Assembly (NCBI RefSeq): GCF_025148285.1
Contig: NZ_CP102268.1
Span: 2,149,001 to 2,213,000, forward strand
DNA from: Marvinbryantia formatexigens DSM 14469
GTDB taxonomy: Bacteria; Bacillota; Clostridia; Lachnospirales; Lachnospiraceae
DNA length: 64,000 bases
Direction: 5' to 3'
In this document: positions 39,685-59,494 of the stretch, in pieces
How the letters are laid out: each line of letters begins with the position of its first letter
Numbering within the stretch: the first letter of the stretch is position 1
The notes under the pieces: model-generated
Database searches by the model: none
Seen by the model: only the letters and a program-made list of their open reading frames with translations
What the model was told of the DNA's origin: nothing
Made by a program: the position numbers and the translations under genes

Positions 39685-39828
39685 TATCCGGAGGACCTGG
39701 GTGAAAGAAGGATGGGTTGCTATCCGGAGGACCTGGGTGAAAGAAGGATGGGTTGCTATCCGGAGGGCTCAGATGACAGAAGGACGGGTTTCTATCCGGA
39801 TGGCTCAGATGACAGAAGGACGGGAGGA
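39685..39828 (+). repeat. 36-bp tandem repeat, four copies, ending at a ribosome site
   Basis: Copies start at 39685, 39721, 39757 and 39793. Copies 1 and 2 are identical; copies 3 and 4 are nearly identical to each other and diverge from 1-2 in the middle. The tail of copy 4 (GGGAGGA) is the ribosome site for the response regulator starting at 39837. Confidence 0.92.
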
Positions 39829-39836
39829 AGCGCGGA

Positions 39837-40883
39837 ATGTATAAGGTAGTGGTGGTGGACGACGAACCGATTATCGTGAAAGGGCTTACGCAGCTTATAC
39901 CGTGGGAGAAGTATGGGTGCGAGGTCGTGGGCACGGCGGAGGACGGCATGGAAGGGCTGGAAGTAATCCGGAAGTGCCGCCCGGACATTATTTTTTCGGA
40001 TATTTATATGCCGAAAATGAACGGGCTTCTGATGGCGGCAGCGCTTAAATCGGAGTTTGAGGACACGCAGCTTACGATACTGACCGGCTACCGGGATTTT
40101 GAGCTGGCGCAGGAGGCAATCCGGCTTGGCGTGACGCGCTATATTCTGAAGCCCTCCAATATGGAGGAGCTGGAGGAAGCGCTGTGCGCGATGGTGCAGA
40201 ATCTGCAGAAGAAGGGCATTGACGGGCAGACGGGCGCAGAAGCCGGGCAGAATCCTCCGGGGCAGACGATGGAGAAGAGCAATCAGGGGCAGATAAAGGA
40301 AAAAAGTAATCCGGAGAAAAGAACAGAGATGAACGGTCGGGGGCAGATACCGGTGAAGGACAATCCGGAGATGAACGGTCGGGAGCAGATGCCAGTGAAG
40401 GATAATCCGGAGATGAACGGTCGGGAGCAGATACCGGTGAAGGGCAATCCGGAGATGAACGGTCGGGAGCAGATGCCGGTGAAGAACAATCCGGTGAAGA
40501 GACCGGAGCAGGGGCAGAAATCCGGGGAAGCTCTACGGGAGACGGGAGAGGCGAAAACCCCGGCGGGAAGCTTTCTGGTAAATAAGGCGTTGGAATATAT
40601 GCAGAAGAATTACCGGCGCAAGGTGACGCTCACCGATGTCGCCGACAGTATTTTTGTCAGTCAGTGGCATCTGAGCAAGCTGCTGAACAGTCATACCGGG
40701 CAGAGCTTTTCCGAGCTGATGAACAGTATCCGTGTGGAGGAAGCGAAAAAGCTTCTGGAAGATCCGGCGCTTCGCGTGGGCGATGTGGCGGAGCAGGTGG
40801 GCTTTGTGGACATGGCGCATTTCTCGCGCGTGTTTAAGAAGGTGACGGGAATCTCCGCAAATGAATTCCGCAACCGGTTGTAG
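39837..40883 (+). CDS. Response regulator with AraC-type output and a repetitive linker
   Basis: A 348-residue regulator. The receiver (1-120) has D8, D9, E10 and phospho-acceptor D55. Residues about 130-235 are not the usual folded middle region but a hydrophilic linker containing four 14-residue repeats of the form N-P-E-M-N-G-R-E-Q-(M/I)-P-V-K-x. The C-terminal 105 residues are a normal AraC double helix-turn-helix. Most YesN proteins are about 480-540 residues, so the central domain is replaced. It lies beyond the importer genes whose transcription it probably controls, with its kinase upstream of them. Confidence 0.9.
   Translation: MYKVVVVDDEPIIVKGLTQLIPWEKYGCEVVGTAEDGMEGLEVIRKCRPDIIFSDIYMPKMNGLLMAAALKSEFEDTQLTILTGYRDFELAQEAIRLGVTRYILKPSNMEELEEALCAMVQNLQKKGIDGQTGAEAGQNPPGQTMEKSNQGQIKEKSNPEKRTEMNGRGQIPVKDNPEMNGREQMPVKDNPEMNGREQIPVKGNPEMNGREQMPVKNNPVKRPEQGQKSGEALRETGEAKTPAGSFLVNKALEYMQKNYRRKVTLTDVADSIFVSQWHLSKLLNSHTGQSFSELMNSIRVEEAKKLLEDPALRVGDVAEQVGFVDMAHFSRVFKKVTGISANEFRNRL
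40326..40493 (+). repeat. 42-bp in-frame tandem repeat inside the response regulator gene, four copies
   Basis: Copies start at 40326, 40368, 40410 and 40452, each beginning GAGATGAACGGTCGGG. The period is a multiple of three, so copy-number change alters linker length without shifting frame. Confidence 0.92.
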
Positions 40884-56196: not shown

Positions 56197-56335
56197 ATAC
56201 CAGACAGATCGTTTTGTGCGCAGTAGTTGGGACCGGGCTTTGCAGCCGGCTGCATGAACCGGAAAACGGAACTGCTGCGTGTGTCGTAGATACGAACAAA
56301 TCTGCGAGGATGCTTTGCATGGAAGCTTCTTTCGC

Positions 56336-56478
56336 ACAAGGCAGGCAGGTTTCCTGGCTCACAGATTTGCGCTTGTCCCTCCTTCTCACGGCATTCGCCG
56401 CAATGGATATCCGGGGAAGCTCCCTGCTCACAGTGACCGCATCGCTCAGGCTTTTCCTGATTCCCTCTCATTTCCGGA
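56336..56478 (-). promoter_or_regulatory. Cobalamin riboswitch aptamer
   Basis: Read on the minus strand: GAGGGAATCAGG and AAAGCCTGAGCGATGCGG near the 5' side, then CACTGTGAGCAGGGAG, and at the 3' side the B12 box GTGAGCCAGGAAACCTGCCTGCC region (56336-56362). These are the conserved elements of the cobalamin riboswitch in their normal order. It should repress the btuFCD-like operon when corrinoid is plentiful. Confidence 0.92.
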
Positions 56479-56513
56479 TACGGAAATTCACCTGCTTTGT
56501 TTCGACAAAATTC

Positions 56514-56663: not shown

Positions 56664-57110
56664 TTAATAAAGATTATATATTTCGTTGTACTTCTGCTTC
56701 GCTTCGTGAAATTTTCCGGATTCACGGAAGCCGTATATTTCCCGGACACTGTAAGGAAGCATTGGCAGCTTTTCCCGTGTTGCGAGCACAAAGTAGTTAT
56801 CTGATTTCAAAGCAAGCTCCGCGAATTTTTTTGAAGCCAGAAAGCGGCTTCCTTCATCAATAAAAATGATGGAACCGGATATGCCTTCCAACTGCCGCTC
56901 CCAGTCTTCGCTGTCTAATGTTCGGCAGGGGAGGTCGCAGGAGACTACAATGCCGCTGTCAGTACCGTATCTTCTATAGTCACGGATAAAATCAATCAAT
57001 ACGGTTTTACCGGAGCCGCTGTCTCCGGTGAGGATGGTGATATTTCTTCTAATGGTAAAATCGTATCGGATTTTCTTTGATTCAACAATGATTCTGTGAG
57101 CGCCCTTCAT
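56664..57110 (-). CDS. Small P-loop ATPase, partner of the DUF4869 protein
   Basis: A 148-residue protein with Walker A G-D-S-G-S-G-K-T at about 30-37 and a Walker B-like S-I-I-F-I-D-E-G. It is too short for a complete AAA+ module and lacks a recognisable lid or sensor region. Its ribosome site (AGGAG) is formed by the last codons of the DUF4869 reading frame, seven bases upstream, so the two genes were once directly coupled. The insertion at 57310 has now separated it from the intact DUF4869 gene and probably from the operon promoter. Function unknown. Confidence 0.7.
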   Translation of the reverse strand: MKGAHRIIVESKKIRYDFTIRRNITILTGDSGSGKTVLIDFIRDYRRYGTDSGIVVSCDLPCRTLDSEDWERQLEGISGSIIFIDEGSRFLASKKFAELALKSDNYFVLATREKLPMLPYSVREIYGFRESGKFHEAKQKYNEIYNLY

Positions 57111-57309
57111 AATATATTACTCCTGTTTCATTTTGTTCAGATATTCAGAGGCAACGGGAATCAGCTCTTTCATCGAATGCACGATTTCTCCGCTGTTCCC
57201 GACAACGATTGTGAATTTTGTGTCTTTCCCAAAATCCATCAGATGCCGGAGATTGATGGTCAGGTTTTTGCTTTCCGCTATTTTCAGAATCCATTTTGCG
57301 CAGTTATCC
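57109..57309. repeat. 201-bp direct repeat, copy 1
   Basis: Identical, as far as I can compare by eye, to 59028-59228 (constant offset of 1919). It comprises the 3' end of the DUF4869 gene and the gap before the ATPase gene. See the IS1634-like element it flanks. Confidence 0.92.
57117..57309 (-). pseudogene. Duplicated 3' fragment of the DUF4869 gene
   Basis: Encodes the last 64 residues of the DUF4869 protein in frame but has no start; its 5' end is cut at the junction with the IS element. The complete gene is at 59036-59494. Confidence 0.88.
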
Positions 57310-58932
57310 GGAACCTTGAAAGAACTTCTTCCAGAACACGGTCCTACCCGCGATGATGTCATGAAATGGGCCAGAGAGGAAGCCAGACTGGAAACACTCA
57401 GATACAAAGAAGAACAGCAGGCCAAGTCGGTTCAGATAACTTTTCACTCTGACCAGAAGCTGGATTATAGTCAGCAGGTCTTTTACCGCGGAGGATATCT
57501 TTTTCCACAAGCCTTTTACTATCGTATCCAGCTTGATAAGACTTGCCGAAAGCTCAGAGATAAATATAAATTTAAGTATGATATCAATGCCATCCTTTCC
57601 GATCTGATCTATGCCAGGGTTCTGGAACCAGCAAGTAAGCGTTCTTCTTTTAAGATAGCTTCTGAATTCCTGGAAAAACCTTCTTATCAATTACATGATA
57701 TATACCGGGCTCTTGATGTCCTGGGAAATGAATGCGATTTCATCCAGTCTGAAGTTTATAAAAACAGTCATCTTCTCGGAAAACGAGATGATAAGATACT
57801 TTATTATGACTGTACAAACTATTTCTTTGAGATCGAGCAGGAAGATGGGGAGAGAAAATACGGGAAAGGAAAAGAACACCGGCCTAATCCAATCATTCAA
57901 ATGGGGATGTTTATGGACGGAGCTGGAATTCCTCTTGCTTTTTCCCTTTTTCCCGGAAATGCGAATGAACAAACATCACTAAAACCTCTGGAAGAAAAAG
58001 TCCTCCAGGACTTTGGTTGTACAAAATTTATTTACTGCAGTGATGCCGGACTTGGTTCAGAAGCCATTAAAAGAATAAACCATGCAGGCCAGAGAGCTTT
58101 TATTGTTACCCAGTCCATCAAAAAGCTGAATAAAGATGACAGGAAATGGGCACTGGACAAAACTGGCTTTAAACGTGTTTCCGATGATTCTCCGGCAGAT
58201 CTTTCCAGACTTACAGAGGATGATGCCGGCCTGTATTATAAGGATGAACCATATACCCCTCATTCACTGCACCAGCGTCTCATTGTCACTTACTCTCCTA
58301 AATATGCAAAATATCAGAAAGCAATACGTGACGCACAGGTAGAGCGTGCCGAAAAAATGCTCCATTCCGGGAAAGTAAAAAAAGAACGCAGAAACCCGAA
58401 CGATCCCGCACGATTTATAGGTAAGATTGCAGTTACAGAAGAAGGAGAAGCTGCTAAAATCAAGAATTATCTGGATACAGATAAAATAGAAACCGAAGCG
58501 CTCTATGATGGAATGTACGCTGTAACTACAGATTTGTTAGATGATGACGTAAAAGATATTTTAAAAGTAAGCGAGGGCCGTTGGGAAATCGAAGAATGTT
58601 TCCGCATCATGAAAACAGATTTTGAAGCAAGACCTGTATTTCTTCATGACGATGTGCGTATCAAAGCACATTTCCTGATCTGTTTTCTTGCATTAGTCAT
58701 ATACCGTTACCTTGAAAAAAGTTTGGGAAATGCCTATACCTGTGAAACAATCCTGGACAAACTGAAATCCATGAATTTTGCTGATGTACAGGAACAGGGG
58801 TTCATGCCACTTTATACACGGGACAAACTAACCGATGCCTTACACGAAGCATGTGGTTTTGAAACAGACTTTCAATTCATTACAAAAAGCCAAATGAAAA
58901 CAATCCAGAAAAAAAGTAAAGGGAGAAAATAA
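57310..58932 (+). pseudogene. IS1634-family transposase, 5'-truncated
   Basis: About 540 residues of an IS1634-type DDE transposase: the Asp in I-L-Y-Y-D-C-T-N-Y, the Asp in F-I-Y-C-S-D-A-G-L and the Glu in W-E-I-E-E-C-F-R-I-M are the candidate catalytic residues and all remain. The N-terminal part and native start are lost. By chance the frame stays open upstream through antisense of the duplicated DUF4869 fragment to a TTG at 57133, so a 599-residue chimera is possible, but it has no ribosome site and is probably not made. Base composition is more AT-rich than nearby metabolic genes. Confidence 0.85.
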
Positions 58933-58956
58933 AATACCATACTTCAAAACAAGAGC

Positions 58957-59002
58957 AAAACACCTTGCAACCAGCATAAACACTGGGTTTGCGAGGTGTT
59001 TT
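58957..59002 (+). terminator. Terminator at the end of the IS1634-like transposase
   Basis: AAAACACCTTGCAA and TTGCGAGGTGTTTT arms (one mismatch) around an inner stem, ending in T-rich sequence. Confidence 0.75.
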
Positions 59003-59027
59003 AGCCTTCTCAACTGTCAAAGATGGG

Positions 59028-59228
59028 ATAATATATTACTCCTGTTTCATTTTGTTCAGATATTCAGAGGCAACGGGAATCAGCTCTTTCATCGAATGCA
59101 CGATTTCTCCGCTGTTCCCGACAACGATTGTGAATTTTGTGTCTTTCCCAAAATCCATCAGATGCCGGAGATTGATGGTCAGGTTTTTGCTTTCCGCTAT
59201 TTTCAGAATCCATTTTGCGCAGTTATCC
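59028..59228. repeat. 201-bp direct repeat, copy 2
   Basis: Second copy of 57109-57309; here it is continuous with the rest of the intact DUF4869 gene, so this copy keeps the original right-hand context. Confidence 0.92.
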
Positions 59229-59494
59229 CCGCACGTGGAGGCGTTGAAAATTTTATCCGGTTCATTCAGCATAAGAAGCAGCGTTTTTACACCACCGGAT
59301 AACCTTTCAGGAGGAATCTGTCCCAAGACCGGGCTCTGGATACATTCGCCGCTCAGAACGTCTGATTTATCTATATCTTTAACCATCTGCTTTGCCAGGG
59401 CGGAATCGAACCATTCCGGCTCATAGGTATTTTTAAAATAGACAGCGGTATTGTAGACGCTGTTTTCCATATCGCCAAAAAAAATTGTCAGCAT
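59036..59494 (-). CDS. DUF4869 protein
   Basis: A 152-residue protein from ATG 59494 (AGAGGTG upstream). The start M-L-T-I-F-F-G-D-M and the N-D-E-P-D-K / C-A-K-W-I-L-K-I-A blocks fit DUF4869, a family without known function usually coded next to a small ATP-binding protein, as was the case here before the IS insertion. No membrane segment or signal peptide. The middle reads L-L-L-M-L-N-E-P-D, reminiscent of an ATPase Walker B region, so it may interact with nucleotide or with the partner ATPase (speculative). Confidence 0.75.
   Translation of the reverse strand: MLTIFFGDMENSVYNTAVYFKNTYEPEWFDSALAKQMVKDIDKSDVLSGECIQSPVLGQIPPERLSGGVKTLLLMLNEPDKIFNASTCGDNCAKWILKIAESKNLTINLRHLMDFGKDTKFTIVVGNSGEIVHSMKELIPVASEYLNKMKQE

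Follow-up and report, generated by a model that had tools for sequence, protein, structure and literature searches.

A truncated IS1634-family element with a long target duplication, from a subclade that targets predicted sigma-A promoters

Insertion sequences of the IS1634 family encode DDE-type transposases, are 1500-2000 bp in length (PMC2266710) and carry terminal inverted repeats starting with C. Typical members, for example ISPfe2 of Paracoccus, generate target site duplications (TSDs) of 5-6 bp (PMC2266710, PMC3281130). By contrast, the founders of the family, IS1634 of Mycoplasma mycoides and IS1549 of Mycobacterium smegmatis, are an accepted exception, with long TSDs of variable length (8-514 bp), for which a 2008 review states that no mechanistic model had been proposed (PMC2266710). 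No published target rule was found for these two elements, the sites of which were not tested here. More distantly, the Tn5/IS50 transposase of the IS4 family shares the RNase-H-like DDE core with an insertion, but Tn5 gives 9 bp TSDs and has no base-exact promoter rule. Mobile elements led to promoters by the transcription machinery are found in yeasts, where Ty1/Ty3 and Tf1 integrate at RNA polymerase III or II promoters; these are retrotransposons with tethering factors and 5 bp TSDs, and have no common descent with the element described below.

The window analysed was a 64,000 nt stretch of the Marvinbryantia formatexigens DSM 14469 chromosome (GCF_025148285.1, NZ_CP102268.1, positions 2,149,001 to 2,213,000), in which a first-pass annotation had noted an IS1634-like element between identical 201 bp direct repeats. 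This observation is confirmed: a search for direct repeats recovered one family of 201 nt with a spacing of 1919 nt, a perfect match far beyond chance, and the 1718 bp between the two copies encode a transposase that matches the IS1634 family model (NF033559, 342.9 bits against a cut-off of 100) and the Pfam DDE_Tnp_1 domain. The genome, a single contig (C1) of 4.58 Mb, harbours four further copies that are 100% identical over all 1718 bp. The annotation had named complete copies sharing the left end at 57310 as the finding that would count against a lost terminus; instead, all four extend 243 bp further left. The complete element is therefore 1961 bp long, with tips CGGGAGTTTGACA and CCCATCTTTGACA, both ends carrying TTTGACA, and a 575 aa transposase starting at base 139. 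The copy in the window consists of bases 244-1961 (base 243, a C, is shared by chance) and lacks the left terminal repeat, the leader with its hairpin and codons 1-35; the left tip CGGGAGTTTGACA occurs nowhere in the window. The complete copies have TSDs of 84, 113, 126 and 263 bp, such that 201 bp is ordinary for this element, though outside the 5-6 bp of typical members of the family. In the last case, locus L003 (C1:1389374-1391334), the IS is identical to the other copies yet its 263 bp TSD copies differ at 7 positions; the flank looks like a dispersed repeat, so gene conversion may have acted. A second IS1634 element in the same genome, 48% identical and with a TSD of about 111 bp (locus L006, C1 about 2.834-2.836 Mb), lies beside what appears to be an elongation factor Tu gene.

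The interpretation originally placed on the repeats is only partly supported. The family, the long TSD and the loss of the left end, which accounts for the internally placed left junction, were all correctly inferred. The suggestion that a partly duplicated gene had been frozen is not supported, as the DUF4869 and ATPase genes flanking the element are both full length, with only a 3' fragment of the former duplicated. Neither is the claim that the element can no longer excise: transposase-driven movement is probably lost, but 201 bp perfect repeats are a good substrate for homologous recombination, which would remove the element cleanly. A longer original duplication is possible but not shown, given that 201 bp lies within the range of the complete copies. 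The one-sided promoter targeting described below, which explains where the duplication starts, had been missed. The features of the locus, along with others in the window, are listed in the table.

Features of the truncated element, its flanks and other parts of the 64,000 nt window (window coordinates)
Coordinates	Strand	Feature	Basis or remark
57109-57309		Left copy of the 201 bp TSD, possibly shortened on its right side	100% identical to 59028-59228
59028-59228		Right copy of the TSD, joined to the intact right IS end	100% identical to 57109-57309
57310-59027	+	IS1634-family element, bases 244-1961 of a 1961 bp IS	Four complete identical copies in the same genome
57310-58932	+	Transposase remnant, residues 36-575 of 575	Joined in frame by chance to an upstream reading of the TSD
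57133-58932	+	599 aa chimeric ORF, TTG start	Transposase frame open into the antisense of DUF4869; probably not expressed
59012-59027	-	Right terminal repeat, inward reading CCCATCTTTGACAGTT	Complete copies and relatives share TTTGACA tips
58951-59008		Strong hairpin just inside the right end, stable on both strands; probable two-way terminator	RNA fold -27.8 and -26.3 kcal/mol, z -5.3 and -4.6
59028-59033	-	Target -10-like hexamer TATTAT, directly against the right IS end	5 of 6 matches to TATAAT; its copy at 57109-57114 overlaps the ATG of the ATPase gene
59053-59058	-	Weak -35-like hexamer TGAACA, 19 bp from the -10	Poor promoter match
59039-59494	-	Intact DUF4869 gene, 3' part in the right TSD copy	PF16163, E 1.2e-57, 127 of 128 profile positions
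57117-57309	-	Duplicated 3' fragment of the DUF4869 gene in the left TSD copy	PF16163 positions 77-128 only
56664-57110	-	Intact small P-loop ATPase gene left of the element; start codon and ribosome-binding site kept by the left TSD copy	148 aa ORF, weak AAA matches
56327-56510	-	Cobalamin riboswitch upstream of the ABC transporter operon	RF00174, 84.8 bits
53116-55990	-	ABC transporter operon	Looks like cobalamin or iron-siderophore uptake
39685-39824 and 40326-40494		Tandem arrays of 36 bp and 42 bp units	Function not examined

The complete copies and the window copy all begin their right TSD copy with an AT-rich hexamer (ATTATC, ATTTTA, ATTATA, ATTTTA and ATAATA). Relatives were therefore gathered through family-level genome searches and one scan of the species collection with a ten-sequence transposase alignment, and the direct repeats flanking each element were identified by script. 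Plasmid and phage collections contained almost no close copies, and a scan of viral contigs gave a single remote locus (L135). Fifty independent insertions had verified TSDs of 38-321 bp (median 91 bp), varying in length between copies. These have distinct target sequences, although the elements themselves are related. At locus L083 in Lachnoanaerobaculum orale, the flanking repeat pair encloses 4.2 kb with 335 bp, diverged repeats, which is probably a nested or tandem IS arrangement. Read on the strand pointing into the right IS end, positional counts show TTG at -29 to -27, a G at -8 and TATAAT at -6 to -1 relative to the joint, and little else: the -35, 17 bp spacer, extended -10 and -10 of a sigma-A promoter.

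Several tests support this pattern. Matches to TTGACA of at least 4/6 at a spacer of exactly 17 bp were found in 21 of 49 sites, against a background of 4.4% (p about 4e-16), and the -10 matched TATAAT at 5/6 or 6/6 in 43 of 49; a few members (loci L023, L074, L076, L103, L123 and L053) lack a clear -10. TGn precedes the -10 in 16 of 50 sites, against a mean of 3.5 at other offsets. A second set of 39 right junctions, whose TSDs could not be verified owing to contig ends or rearranged flanks, repeated the result, with 17 of 39 at spacer 17 and at most 3 at spacers 16, 18 and 19. By contrast, the left end shows no -10 preference (7 of 48, 5.6 expected), and TSD lengths show no significant helical phasing. 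A gene start with a ribosome-binding site lies within 350 nt downstream of the -10 on the promoter strand in 37 of 49 sites, against 8 of 49 on the opposite strand and 45% at random offsets on the same strand. These promoters are predicted from sequence, with no transcript data. At one site (L115, Lachnoanaerobaculum orale), the orthologue of the 90 bp TSD is single copy and uninterrupted in four sister species, with ATTATA conserved, and hence this motif belongs to the target. No empty version of the window's own site was found in relatives, in which only the DUF4869 part matched. The window's own -10-like hexamer abuts the right IS end, as in most of the subclade, but the spacing of its weak -35-like sequence falls outside the 16-18 bp range, which leaves undecided whether this site has the -35 found so clearly across the clade; the rule is thus only weakly visible at this copy.

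As a negative control, a phylum-wide family search and extra regions gave 21 long-TSD insertions (34-1362 bp) of other IS1634 subclades, with tips CCTGAGTTTATC and CTTGACTTTGTC (genomes G572, G737, G649, G694, G588 and G713), which were processed in nearly the same way. These lack the promoter signature, with -10 matches of 1-4 and a mean -35 match of 1.9 at spacer 17. Their target preference is also one-sided, but consists of a run of T at the left junction (11 of 21, 1.9 expected, p 6e-7; loci L181, L184, L185, L188, L190, L193 and L197 are instances), which is present in 3 of 48 insertions of the promoter clade. Two of these left junctions (L185 and L188) look by eye like intrinsic terminators, but folds tested at other left junctions were mixed, so only a T-run preference is claimed. 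Two outside genomes with TTTGACA tips (G616 and G679) gave five sites with -10 matches of 4-6 and one perfect TTGACA-17-TATAAT. Hence the long TSD is a wider property of the family, whereas the target rule is specific to the subclade and the promoter signal is not made by the pipeline.

An AlphaFold2 model of a relative (locus L059; mean pLDDT 73) has Tn5 transposase as its nearest solved fold (3ecp, Foldseek E 8.8e-06), the family's variant of the YREK motif and the catalytic triad not having been examined beyond this and the DDE Pfam domain. In the model, the first 37 residues form a small beta-sheet domain, nearly all of which is missing from the window copy.

The explanation held with high confidence is that the window contains a recent copy of an IS1634-family element that inserted with a long TSD, then lost its left 243 bp, and perhaps part of the left TSD copy, by illegitimate deletion. 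The left junction has one base of ambiguity, as in an illegitimate deletion of at least 243 bp. What the comparisons themselves demonstrate is that the right end of elements in this subclade joins exactly next to the 3' end of the -10 hexamer of a sigma-A promoter, between positions -7 and -6 on the template strand, while the left end joins the other strand at a variable distance upstream (about -44 to -327, median about -97); the duplicated stretch therefore contains the whole promoter, and the downstream gene, remaining next to the left TSD copy, keeps one. The mechanism is an inference from this arrangement. The joint lies inside the region that RNA polymerase melts in the open complex, and for most sites the left joint is upstream of the polymerase-covered DNA; the first strand transfer may thus be into the melted -10, with the second end joined beyond the bound polymerase and gap repair giving a long, variable TSD. 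No direct evidence ties RNA polymerase to the reaction, and such guidance of the transpososome is considered about as likely as not. It is likewise inferred that hairpins just inside both ends, the second being accompanied by a T-run near the left end of the complete copies, insulate the element from the promoter copy that now reads into its right end.

The alternative that survives best, though held only tentatively, is that the transposase itself reads the promoter-like sequence as DNA, without RNA polymerase. Both IS ends carry TTTGACA, so the same DNA-binding domain might hold the target's -35, and the joint is fixed to the base relative to the -10, as expected for direct reading. However, TTGACA lies 7 nt from the tip in the IS ends but 23 nt from the joint in targets, the simultaneous requirement for TATAAT is not explained by the terminal repeats, the extended -10 G is also enriched, and some excellent targets have spacers of 18 bp (L032, L098) or 16 bp (L102), as sigma factor tolerates and a rigid protein-DNA ruler would not. 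The flexible spacers and the extended -10 G favour a sigma-based reading, but no experiment is available. For the window copy alone, it is possible but unlikely that the left end was lost during insertion, through nucleolytic trimming of the unjoined end before repair, such that the original TSD was exactly 201 bp. This length is within the normal range, and the junction has a single base of ambiguity, with the sequence not distinguishing one step from two; yet a rare abortive event is needed, whereas a later deletion of at least 243 bp explains the same structure and is commonplace. That insertions are random and survive best in intergenic DNA near gene starts is very unlikely: although most sites are intergenic with a gene start downstream, selection cannot place the joint at one base relative to -10 and -35 in 89 junctions, nor always put the right end there, and other long-TSD subclades do not show it, refuting the simple form of this idea. 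An assembly artefact or a duplication unrelated to transposition, for which no reads were examined, can be all but dismissed, given the single-contig assembly, the long TSDs starting with the same motif at the four other copies, and a repeat that abuts the right IS end exactly where the rule predicts.

The window copy is a deletion derivative of a known family, in which long, variable TSDs have already been described, whereas the base-exact, one-sided preference of its subclade for sigma-A promoters appears to be unreported; no account of promoter- or -10-directed insertion sequences was found in a literature search, which, covering open papers only, is not proof of novelty. Why IS1634-type elements make such duplications has been an open question, and in this one large subclade the variability is one-sided, with one end fixed to the base at promoter -10 elements and only the other wandering, which makes the question testable. 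The insertions also offer natural promoter maps, each marking a sigma-A promoter in poorly studied gut Clostridia. If polymerase guides insertion, it would be a bacterial counterpart of promoter-directed integration in yeast retrotransposons, and promoter capture of this kind would explain both the target and the long variable duplication of this IS1634 subclade, and would make insertion nearly harmless because the downstream gene keeps a full promoter.
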